Below, piece after piece: positions 37,321 to 40,346 of a stretch of DNA of 64,000 nucleotides. The notes under the pieces are model-generated. The model saw only the letters and a program-made list of their open reading frames with translations, was not told the DNA's origin and made no database searches. Source of the stretch: Erysipelotrichia bacterium (GTDB lineage: Bacteria; Bacillota_I; Bacilli_A; Erysipelotrichales; Erysipelotrichaceae); contig JAGXSD010000006.1 of assembly GCA_018333955.1 (NCBI GenBank), positions 1-64,000 on the forward strand, read 5' to 3'. The translations under genes were made by a program, and so were the position numbers. Position 1 is the stretch's first letter, and every line of letters begins with the position of its first letter.

Positions 37321-38154
37321 ATGTTAGGTATGAGCGAACTTGATGAACAATTAACTGCATTAATCGTATGGGGAATCCATCACCAAGTTTCAGATATCTT
37401 GATTGAAGAAGGATTAAACAACCACATTCAAGGATTAACTATGCATCAACGGTTGGTCTATGAACATCAGAATTCACTTAGAAAACTTATTGATTTTATT
37501 TTGCATAAAGCAAAACTATCATTAGGGAGTGAAGTTGCTCAAAGCGAATGGTGTGAGGTATGGACTCCTCAAGGGTTTATTAATCTTCGGGTATCTTATC
37601 TAAAAACAATGGTCTGTCGCTTCTTAACGTTAAGATTAGTACGACATAGCTTTTTAAATCTTGAATCAATACTTACACCACATCAACATCCTTTACTTGA
37701 CCTCGTTGTGTCAATAAAACATGGGTTAATCTGCTTTATTGGACAAGCAGGATCTGGAAAAAGTACTACTTTAAGATCATTTCTTCATAGTATTCAACAT
37801 CGAAGGATTATTAGTATCGAGCATCCCATTGAACATCATTGTGCATTTATGATGCAAATTGAGCAACATCATCATGATATTGAAACCTTAGTGTACCATG
37901 CATTAAGGCATCATCCTCACGTTTTAGTGATTGAAGAAGTTCGCAACTCACATGAACTTCAAGTTGCCTGTGAGGCTGCTTTAAGTGGGCATTTAGTATG
38001 CATGACATTTCATGCGCATAATCGTGAATTAGCACTTCAAAGAATGAACTCTATGATCCCTGATTTAGATGTTTCAATCATCAAAGCCTGGTTTGTCCAG
38101 AGTAGAAATGAGGAAGATGATGAAAAAATTCATGTTTCAATTCACATTTCATAA
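37321..38154 (+). CDS. comGA: Competence pilus assembly ATPase ComGA-like
   Basis: 277-residue GspE/PilB-type ATPase powering pseudopilus assembly for DNA uptake. Walker A GQAGSGKST is at 141-149, followed by the Asp-box region SIEHPIEHH and the Walker B region HVLVIEEVRNSHELQVACEAALSGHLVCMTFHAHN. It is shorter than Bacillus ComGA (about 350); the N-terminal domain is trimmed and I see no CxxC zinc loop. The ATG has no good ribosome binding site and lies only about 22 bases after the rpmG terminator. An in-frame ATG at 37330 is an alternative. It starts a tightly overlapping comG operon. Confidence 0.85.
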   Translation: MLGMSELDEQLTALIVWGIHHQVSDILIEEGLNNHIQGLTMHQRLVYEHQNSLRKLIDFILHKAKLSLGSEVAQSEWCEVWTPQGFINLRVSYLKTMVCRFLTLRLVRHSFLNLESILTPHQHPLLDLVVSIKHGLICFIGQAGSGKSTTLRSFLHSIQHRRIISIEHPIEHHCAFMMQIEQHHHDIETLVYHALRHHPHVLVIEEVRNSHELQVACEAALSGHLVCMTFHAHNRELALQRMNSMIPDLDVSIIKAWFVQSRNEEDDEKIHVSIHIS

Positions 38155-39028
38155 AAAAAAGAGCATATCACCACAATTATTACATCATATTGCCTCAACA
38201 ACTTCTTCAATGACTTCTTATTCACTCATTCAAACGATGTATCAGTTGCCTTTTAATTCATCTCAAGAATTTCTTTCATCATTTGGTGTACGCGATCATC
38301 ACAATTTTATCGAGCACTTAACGATTTTAAAATCAAACTATTGGTTTAAAGAACAAGTTATGAAGCAAGTAATCAGTTTGATTTATCCACTCATGATGCT
38401 TGTCACAAGTACATTTCTTTTCCATGTTTTTAGACTTCAACTTACTCCCATGTTGAACAAGTTTGAACCATCATCCTTATTTCAAAATTCCTTACTTTCA
38501 ATGATTCATATCGTGATGGTAAGCATGATAATCATATTTATAGCATTGCTTTATTGGATAAATAAAGCTTTATATCGAAAGATCTTAATCATACAATTTT
38601 TCAAACATACTTCCTTTATCAAGACTCTACTTGAGTGGCAATTTATGAGTGTTGTGAACAGTTCTAAAGCGTCATACTTTTCATTTCAAAACATTATTGA
38701 TCTATTAAAAGCTCATGAAACTAATCCTTTAAATTGCGTATTAGCTTATGAGTTAAAAGAACATATTGAACATGGTGAAGATTTTCAATCATGGATTAAA
38801 AAAATAAGTATTAATCATCATCTCTCTCATTGGCTTGAACATCAGATTATGAATCATCACACAAATCAATGTGAACTTTGGCAACAACAACTCCAATTTT
38901 TAATGATTCATCATTTAACACGTTTTAAGACGATGGGTTTAACTTGCGCATATGGTTTAATTGCTTTCAATATCATGGGTATGATGTCGCTATTAACATA
39001 TCCTTATGAATGGATGGTTCAATTATGA
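38120..39028 (+). CDS. comGB: Competence pilus membrane platform protein ComGB-like
   Basis: 302-residue GspF/PilC-type inner-membrane protein with hydrophobic segments near 90-115, 125-150 and 275-295. It has the overall pattern of two cytoplasmic helical repeats, each before membrane helices. I start at ATG 38120 with GAGG six bases before; in-frame ATGs at 38069, 38108 and 38117 are less well placed. It overlaps comGA by 35 bp and comGC by ATGA. Sequence conservation in this family is low, so the call rests on topology and on position between an ATPase and prepilins. Confidence 0.78.
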   Translation: MKKFMFQFTFHKKKSISPQLLHHIASTTSSMTSYSLIQTMYQLPFNSSQEFLSSFGVRDHHNFIEHLTILKSNYWFKEQVMKQVISLIYPLMMLVTSTFLFHVFRLQLTPMLNKFEPSSLFQNSLLSMIHIVMVSMIIIFIALLYWINKALYRKILIIQFFKHTSFIKTLLEWQFMSVVNSSKASYFSFQNIIDLLKAHETNPLNCVLAYELKEHIEHGEDFQSWIKKISINHHLSHWLEHQIMNHHTNQCELWQQQLQFLMIHHLTRFKTMGLTCAYGLIAFNIMGMMSLLTYPYEWMVQL

Positions 39029-39321
39029 AACAAAAACAAGCCTTTACGTTGATCGAAATGATCATTGTAATTATTATTATGTCCTATTTTTTATTAACTT
39101 CAATTCCTAACTTGACTCATATCCTTAATCTTGCCGCGTCAAAAACATGTGAGGGACAGGTTAACGTTATTAATGCTGCAATATTACAATACAAAATGGA
39201 ATACCTAAGTTACCCAAGTACTTTGCATGAATTAGTAACTCATGAAAGCTTAGAAGAAGCACAACTTTATTGTGACGGAAAACCGATTCGATATGAAAAC
39301 AATCAAGCTAAAACCCCGTAG
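39025..39321 (+). CDS. comGC: Major pseudopilin ComGC-like
   Basis: 98-residue type IV prepilin-like protein. The leader MKQKQA ends before the class III cleavage motif, giving mature FTLIEMIIVIIIM with the key glutamate at mature position 5. The hydrophobic helix spans about 7-30. Two cysteines (SKTCEGQ and LYCDGKP) could form a disulphide. ATG 39025 overlaps comGB by ATGA. In Bacillus, ComGC is the main pseudopilus subunit. Confidence 0.87.
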   Translation: MKQKQAFTLIEMIIVIIIMSYFLLTSIPNLTHILNLAASKTCEGQVNVINAAILQYKMEYLSYPSTLHELVTHESLEEAQLYCDGKPIRYENNQAKTP

Positions 39322-39616
39322 TGGAACAACCATGATTGAAATAATGATTGTTCTTATCATATCTTTGTCTTCAATCACATTCATTCAACCATTATCGCTT
39401 CACACTCATGAATTCATCATTGATGCTCATATCTTTCACAGTATGATGAAATCCATCTCAATTCATGAACCCATCCCCATAGTGTTTCAAGGTCAATATC
39501 TTAATACCTATCATCCAACTCATGCTTTTTCACATTCTTACACTAAGCACATTGACGGTAGTGACATCATTTTCTATATCGGAAGGGGATATTATGCGAT
39601 TAAAAAAAGGCCATAG
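39293..39616 (+). CDS. comGD: Minor pseudopilin ComGD-like
   Basis: 107-residue prepilin-like protein. The leader MKTIKLKPRSG precedes TTMIEIMIVLIISL with Glu at mature position 5. The start at 39293 avoids an N-terminal extension from 39272 that lies inside comGC. It overlaps comGC by 29 bp and the tiny comGE by 23 bp. No cysteine is present. Identification is by cleavage motif and by operon position. Confidence 0.8.
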   Translation: MKTIKLKPRSGTTMIEIMIVLIISLSSITFIQPLSLHTHEFIIDAHIFHSMMKSISIHEPIPIVFQGQYLNTYHPTHAFSHSYTKHIDGSDIIFYIGRGYYAIKKRP

Positions 39617-39686
39617 TATTTTAGAAGGAATAGTTTTACTTGTTTTATTGAGTCTTATGATTCATCTTATTTCAAAGTTGGTATGA
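39594..39686 (+). CDS. Minimal pseudopilin ComGE-like, 30 residues
   Basis: A 30-codon frame with AAGGGGAT five bases before its ATG. The product MRLKKGHSILEGIVLLVLLS goes on for ten more residues. It has a class III leader (MRLKKG) followed by HSILE, so glutamate is at mature position 5, then a single hydrophobic helix and nothing more. It overlaps comGD by 23 bp and comGF by ATGA, exactly at the ComGE position. Normal ComGE proteins are about 100 residues, so this is a helix-only pseudopilin or a severely shortened one. No in-frame continuation exists past the TGA at 39684. Confidence 0.7.
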   Translation: MRLKKGHSILEGIVLLVLLSLMIHLISKLV

Positions 39687-40048
39687 ATATGTTGTTACAA
39701 ACATTATTCAATATCATAATTTTCGCTTTTTTTATGAGTTTTTCATTTCAAGCCATGAGAGTAGTTACACAACCCATTTCATTAGATCCTTTGAAACATG
39801 ATTACCTTCAACTTCAATTTGACACATTAAGTACTTATTATCGTGGTGCGCACATCCATGATCATGAAGTATGTTTTACCTCATCGATATGTATTGTCTA
39901 TCATCAACATCGACTTATCTTAACCCCAGGTTATCAAATTCTACTTGAGAATCTTCAAGACTTAAATCTTTCACAAAACGAAGATTTGATTATGATTCAC
40001 TTTAAAATAAATGAACAATGGTACAGTTTTTATGTTCAGAAAGAGTAA
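39683..40048 (+). CDS. comGF: Minor pseudopilin ComGF-like
   Basis: 121 residues: a hydrophobic N-terminus (LLQTLFNIIIFAFFMSF) without a clear prepilin cleavage motif, then a beta-rich domain with two cysteines (EVCFTSSICIVYHQ) and LMIHFKINEQWYSFYVQ-like strands. Bacillus ComGF has the same layout. The ATG at 39683 overlaps the comGE stop; ATG 39689 is an alternative. It overlaps comGG by 17 bp. The call is from position and shape. Confidence 0.65.
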   Translation: MNMLLQTLFNIIIFAFFMSFSFQAMRVVTQPISLDPLKHDYLQLQFDTLSTYYRGAHIHDHEVCFTSSICIVYHQHRLILTPGYQILLENLQDLNLSQNEDLIMIHFKINEQWYSFYVQKE

Positions 40049-40346
40049 AGAGGGGAGTGTAATAATCCAAGGTTGGTTTGTGTTCCTTGTTTTTTGTGTT
40101 CTAGTTAATCGAGCTCAACTGAATCGATTTTACTATCTTCAGGCTCAACAGGAGTTAAAAAGAGCACAAGAAATTATCGAAGAACATAATAAAATCATAG
40201 AAATGATGCGACAAAAAACTTATCGATGTGAACTTAGTGATGAAACGTGCTTTACACAATCATATTCATCTTCACGATTCCTCTATCAAATAAAGTTTGA
40301 TCAGCAAACGCGTCATGTGATTGAAATACTGATCACAAAGCATTAA
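40032..40346 (+). CDS. comGG: Minor pseudopilin ComGG-like
   Basis: 104 residues. MFRKSKEG resembles a prepilin leader, and the mature start would be SVIIQGWFVFL with glutamine instead of glutamate at position 5. A hydrophobic helix is followed by a helical EAxxEL-type region (QQELKRAQEIIEEHNKIIEMM) and two cysteines (YRCELSDETCFT). It is last in the comG operon and overlaps comGF. ComGG proteins are poorly conserved, so the assignment is positional. Confidence 0.65.
   Translation: MFRKSKEGSVIIQGWFVFLVFCVLVNRAQLNRFYYLQAQQELKRAQEIIEEHNKIIEMMRQKTYRCELSDETCFTQSYSSSRFLYQIKFDQQTRHVIEILITKH

Follow-up and report, generated by a model that had tools for sequence, protein, structure and literature searches.

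Assembly of type IV filaments is thought to begin with the minor pilins of the tip complex, and it is unsettled which part of each of them does the work. In the competence (Com) pili of Streptococcus sanguinis, the tip is ordered ComGD-ComGF-ComGE-ComGG, and ComGG alone lacks Glu5, the residue thought to neutralise the N-terminus of the neighbouring subunit placed ahead (PMC10790768). In pneumococcus, the E5A mutation of ComGE nearly abolishes pili, whereas that of ComGF has little effect, and the authors concluded that ComGE is especially reliant on its N-terminal helix (PMC8727766). Mutants of the ComGE surface charges transform normally (PMC12153270). Streptococcal ComGE is lollipop-shaped and has a globular head (PMC10790768, PMC12153270), and its slot is equivalent to that of the minor (pseudo)pilins GspI, PulI and PilI in the H-J-I-K tip complex (PMC10790768; PMC10191384 Table 1). 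Even the genome of S. pneumoniae R6 carries no annotation for its comGE (PMC8727766).

Headless pilins are already known, namely Geobacter PilA-N and the Flp pilins of Tad systems, with prepilins of 66 aa in Geobacter and 44 aa in Caulobacter, and the N-terminal helical segment α1N has been proposed by reviewers as a possible minimal type IV pilin fold (PMC4471445). These natural pilins without a globular head are major pilins, unlike the shorter protein described here, which would be a minor pilin of the tip complex of a Com system. The literature that we searched, a scope outside which most subscription journals lie, returned Geobacter PilA-N and Flp among short pilins and no short ComGE, and it held no report of a headless or equally short pilin of the tip complex.

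A 30-codon frame between comGD and comGF

The window analysed here is a stretch of 64,000 nucleotides from the metagenome-assembled genome of an uncultured Erysipelotrichaceae-type bacterium. It contains a complete comG operon from comGA through comGG (Table 1), followed on the 3' side by an aminopeptidase gene and efp, both named from their translations. Judged by sequence, the Com system of the window is divergent, because most of the comG genes match ComG family models only below the curated cut-offs; the comGG product matched no family model in the profile search.

Table 1. Features of the comG operon in the window (a slash marks the predicted prepilin cleavage site)
Feature	Position	Strand	Basis
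comGA, competence pilus extension ATPase, 277 aa	37321..38154	+	NCBIfam ATPase_ComGA is the best model, E 5e-36, under the 300-bit cut-off; Pfam T2SSE E 9e-29
comGB, platform protein, start 38069 or 38114	38069..39028	+	NCBIfam T4P_ComGB E 4e-7, under cut-off; position
comGC, major pilin, 98 aa, MKQKQA/FTLIEM...	39025..39321	+	NCBIfam pilin_ComGC E 8e-17, 61 bits vs cut-off of 75
comGD, minor pilin, 107 aa, ...PRSG/TTMIEIM...	39293..39616	+	Position and prepilin motif; ComGD model matches weakly, E 0.17
Purine-rich stretch GGAAGGGGAT ahead of the mini-comGE start	39581..39590	+	Sequence, start-region comparison; AAGGGGAT within it at 39583-39590, right before the ATG
mini-comGE, 30-codon predicted helix-only minor prepilin MRLKKGHSILEGIVLLVLLSLMIHLISKLV	39594..39686	+	Short frame kept in 21 genomes; purifying selection; one clade
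Predicted prepilin leader MRLKKG, overlapping the comGD 3' end	39594..39611	+	Sequence; 17 of the 21 short forms have Gly(-1)
Predicted mature mini-ComGE, 24 residues, Glu at mature position 5	39612..39683	+	Sequence; Glu5 in 19 of 21
comGF, minor pilin of 121 aa that has neither leader nor cleavage site	39683..40048	+	Pfam ComGF E 6e-4 and NCBIfam pilin_ComGF E 4e-4, both under cut-off; comparison
comGG, putative tip-cap minor pilin, MFRKSKEG/SVIIQGW..., Gln at position 5	40032..40346	+	Position, motif

The initial annotation had placed a 30-codon frame at the ComGE position, and re-reading the sequence confirmed its coordinates, sequence, start, stop and both overlaps. The frame reads MRLKKG/HSILEGIVLLVLLSLMIHLISKLV and ends with the TGA at 39684-39686. 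It overlaps comGD by 23 nt (comGD stop at 39614-39616) and the start of comGF by 4 nt (ATGA). A longer version, a 54-aa ORF from the ATG at 39522, was rejected: the genus-mates conserve the internal ATG as the start, and upstream of it the ORF merely reads comGD out of frame.

The claim that the frame has its own ribosome binding site held only in part. AAGGGG does lie just before the ATG, but the same bases are the comGD codons GGA-AGG-GGA (Gly-Arg-Gly, 39581-39589), which encode a Gly-x-Gly motif of ComGD kept across the family. The MRLKKG leader shares its coding bases with the YYAIKKR of ComGD, which is conserved in the genus-mates. Both the RBS-like stretch and the leader are therefore weak independent evidence of a gene, as they overlap conserved comGD codons. 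A chance reading frame held open by overlap constraints alone would account for both, since the first eight codons share comGD DNA, and a lone 22-codon open stretch past comGD would by itself be unremarkable. What speaks against chance is the part beyond the comGD stop: codons 9-30 share no bases with comGD, their amino acids are preserved among deeply diverged genomes, and we regard a chance frame as very improbable.

Conservation, selection and spread of the short form

Our survey covered about 120 comG loci within the order, and comGE was readable in 105 genomes; a script set some of the starts, and seven frames were chosen manually. The precursor lengths fall into two classes, 21 genomes having 29-39 aa and the other 84 having 48-101 aa, with none in between. 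The short frame stands at the same slot in six genera: that of the window, with all four of its readable genomes, and g8, g9, g10, g49 and g59. The frame that the initial annotation suggested looking for in related genomes is thus present in five more genera and in all three genus-mates with a readable operon there (G001, G005 and the deeply diverged G002; the genus-mates include 'Erysipelothrix sp.' CROMO_A_142, UBA6182 and 'clean450'). Their operon is open from comGA to comGG as far as the contigs reach. Absence or random decay of the frame in close relatives was looked for as well, and neither was found within the genus.

To place the short forms, we used a tree of concatenated ComGC, ComGD and ComGF (337 columns, 104 rows), from which comGE itself was left out, computed in a quick run with SH-aLRT support and no bootstrap. 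All 20 short-form rows fall into one clade, the branch of which has an SH-aLRT value of 96 (99 in the group table). The short/long state requires one change on the tree, and none of 500 label shuffles required as few; an unrooted FastTree gave the same split. The simplest reading of these sequences is one shortening event, after which the short form was kept while six genera diverged. Among the other tip pilins, ComGD and ComGF showed no compensating growth when mature lengths were compared between the clade and the rest: both are slightly shorter in the clade (medians of 91.5 vs 105 for ComGD, 119 vs 124 for ComGF).

Four independent within-genus pairs of short forms differ by 41, 17 and 48 substitutions at codon positions 1, 2 and 3, respectively (chi-square p=0.0006). 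For the comparison of synonymous with nonsynonymous change, also proposed at the outset, the same four pairs gave a pooled Sd/S of 0.63 against an Nd/N of 0.28 for the codons outside the comGD overlap (Fisher p=6e-7). For single pairs, dN/dS outside the overlap is 0.46 (window/G005), which is only moderately low, and 0.17 (g9 pair), 0.29 (g8 pair) and 0.14 (L113/L115), dS being near saturation in these last three; further pairs are saturated at synonymous sites, and L106/L115, the closest pair, has too few changes to be informative. A hydrophobic helix is found in all 21 short forms and Glu at mature position 5 in 19 (the exceptions are L114 and L118). Position 5 is acidic, Glu or Asp, in 82 of the 84 longer forms. 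Asp replaces Glu there in 37 of these 84 (about half) and in none of the short forms. The window ComGE has a class III signal peptide, that is, a basic leader ending in Gly or Ala and then about 21 hydrophobic residues; four of the 21 short forms, all from other species, lack one. The exact retention of leader, Glu5, spacing and overlaps, on which the initial annotation had relied, is present in the window and stands for Glu5 in most of the clade; in part, however, it reflects the coding constraint of comGD, and the leader has decayed in one sub-clade. Taken at the sequence level, the 30-codon frame is a real conserved gene, the helix codons of which are under purifying selection.

These data bear on the possibility that the short frame is a translational bridge that couples comGD to comGF and encodes a functionless peptide. 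The 23-nt and ATGA overlaps are typical of coupling, and the start region is largely dictated by comGD. A bridge, however, would not explain why the amino acids are selected, with few changes at position 2 and Nd/N well below Sd/S, why Glu5 and the hydrophobic helix persist, or why longer homologs with the same motif occupy the same slot. We consider this explanation improbable.

Signs of decay do occur in the clade. In the g59 genomes L106, L113, L114 and L115, the ComGE leader has neither basic residues nor the cleavage Gly (MINC/FTYIEV and similar, with a GTG start assumed), and ComGF of L106 is broken. ComGD of this sub-clade also appears to have lost the cleavage-site Gly and the basic leader, both of which ComGC keeps. 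The window ComGF starts with MNMLLQT, as compared with MSHKQG/SILIQT and MGNQSG/SILIQA in genus-mates, and is without Glu5; it begins at the would-be position -1, apparently after a five-codon in-frame deletion relative to G001. It thereby resembles a 'born mature' pilin. In parts of the clade the system may be disappearing, or the tip pilins may function without cleavage. The eroded cleavage sites, the loss of Glu5 in L114 and L118, the broken ComGF of L106 and the leaderless ComGF of the window would fit a decaying comGE pseudogene in a Com system that is being lost. Against a pseudogene stand the single origin of the short form and its maintenance in six genera under purifying selection, the open comGA-comGG of the genus-mates within the reach of their contigs, and the helix of the eroded sub-clade itself, with dN/dS of 0.14-0.18 in two of three pairs (the third is the closest pair and uninformative). 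The window's ComGE shows erosion of neither the leader, the cleavage site nor Glu5. A pseudogene is unlikely in our view, if slightly less so than a mere bridge.

The leaderless ComGF and the overlap of the two frames might also suggest that a frameshift joins them, such that the short frame supplies the leader and ComGF the body. Yet in G001, G005, G002 and most relatives, ComGF comes with a leader and a helix itself, so that a fusion would there contain two membrane helices. Moreover, no slippery heptamer was found by eye at the overlap, which itself varies from ATGA in the window and G001 to 8 nt in G005. Such a fusion seems highly improbable. The reading that we favour is of a gene in its own right: the frame is probably a functional comGE, the product of which would be a prepilin of about 30 residues.

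Orthology and fold of ComGE in the order

The window gene lies in the ComGE slot of a comGA-comGG operon, between comGD and comGF, and not in a tad locus with tadA/B/C and TadV, as would a major pilin of the Flp type. The NCBIfam model T4P_ComGE (NF041013) matches 16 of the 21 short forms (best E 8.9e-6) and all 15 ComGEs of the sister family (26 bits in one example); in both sets the matches are below cut-off, but no other family gives E-values as low. The ComGF model matches as many members more weakly, as expected from the shared N-terminal motif. Among the sister-family ComGEs, 11 of 15 also match the gspI model TIGR01707, weakly. GspI proteins have a globular domain, unlike mini-ComGE. 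The window protein matches no family model and so falls below the curated cut-off of NF041013 (49 bits), likely an effect of its length. Its ComGE membership rests on operon position and relatives for this reason, and on these grounds of sequence the frame is a headless ortholog of ComGE rather than a canonical ComGE. With the ComGE of Streptococcus and Bacillus Com pili it shares the comGD-comGF slot, the prepilin leader, Glu5 and the hydrophobic N-terminal helix. Whereas the family model spans 83 positions, the predicted mature protein of the window has 24 residues, without the outer half of helix 1 and without a globular head on it. The longer ComGEs of the Erysipelotrichaceae and the sister family (39-86 mature residues surveyed), direct orthologs by position and motif, are predicted to be helical and without strands; they differ in keeping the outer half of the helix, usually with an acidic or Cys-containing tail. 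Many of these tails are acidic with one or two Cys, in a Cys-x-x-Cys-like cluster (e.g. L040, L041, L045, L067 and L077).

The initial annotation had assumed that a globular domain was lost in this lineage. On the predicted folds, this part of the proposal has to be revised. AlphaFold models of two ordinary-length ComGEs, L040 from the family (30-row alignment) and L132 from the sister family (15 rows), have a single helix of 53-54 residues (residues 3-55 and 3-56, respectively) and no strands, with pLDDT near 97 in the hydrophobic half and about 60-65 in a weak tail. Because these two folded representatives are headless and the remaining proteins have similar lengths, ComGE appears, on modelling, to be headless throughout the order. 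The step specific to the short-form clade would then be the loss of the outer helix half and the tail. ComGE in other orders of the class is mostly longer. The head was probably lost at or before the base of the order and the outer helix half later, in the short-form clade. The proposal of a functional mini-subunit thus keeps its core, an ortholog of ComGE by position and relatives that is under selection, and loses its account of when the head disappeared.

A possible role at the pilus tip

By analogy with the family, the prepilin peptidase would remove the leader to leave a 24-residue hydrophobic helix, corresponding to α1N, with Glu at position 5, and mini-ComGE would take its place at the tip of the pilus, flanked by ComGF and ComGG. 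Its Glu5 would neutralise the N-terminal amine of ComGG and so seat the ComGG cap, the helix packing between those of ComGF and ComGG without head contacts. Mini-ComGE would probably be carried into the filament by its partners, because it offers no outer helix or head for the assembly motor to grip. We infer expression, cleavage, assembly and the contact of Glu5 with ComGG, and thereby a helical spacer that would seat the cap. In the close genus-mates of the window, Glu5 is kept in ComGE and position 5 of ComGF is Gln, an asymmetry that matches the pneumococcal mutants. On the other hand, the soluble domains of the pneumococcal minor pilins bind one another (PMC8727766), so heads matter in that species, which counts against a helix-only reading.

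A role in DNA uptake is still plausible because the genome encodes a comEA-comEC pair and A24 peptidases. An apparent absence of ComEC, suggested by the lack of a match to the Pfam Competence model, was dismissed once the ComEC_Rec2 model and inspection of ORFs had revealed the comEA-comEC pair. The assembly holds two divergent such pairs (L177:8-2280 and L182:213-2491, on G000 contigs C37 and C43); the copy on a 3-kb contig may be contamination, which is put at 4.13% for the assembly. The A24 peptidases are a PilD-type enzyme of 261 aa (L184) and one of 127 aa (L183). The latter (L183:700-1083, G000 contig C23) has a GNGD motif and no N-terminal methylase domain and falls below the Pfam cut-off; by sequence it is a candidate for a reduced ComC. 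The full-length pilD belongs to a type IVa pilus cluster (L184, G000 contig C1:55000-68572) with pilB, pilT, pilC, pilM/N/O-like genes and pilins. As this cluster is separate from comG, the genome encodes two type IV filaments.

It is evenly balanced, in our judgement, whether a natural functional tip pilin can consist of the α1N helix alone (23-34 mature residues in the clade, 24 in the window) and be the smallest type IV pilin, so that the ComGE/GspI position would need only a charged helical spacer and a pilin with neither head nor outer helix could enter the filament. If true, this would be difficult for assembly models, as proposed in PMC10191384, in which the motor takes hold of the pilin immediately beneath the head. 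At about 30 residues, mini-ComGE would rank among the smallest pilins described. Where comG operons are said to have no comGE, the gene may merely have been overlooked. From the streptococcal lollipop through the bare long helix of the order to the membrane half in one clade, with Glu5 kept, ComGE apparently forms a natural deletion series. The shortening in the clade suggests that the membrane helix is the part of ComGE that matters, and the series as a whole would single out the helix, together with its charge, as the indispensable core of ComGE, in agreement with the independent point mutants of pneumococcus.
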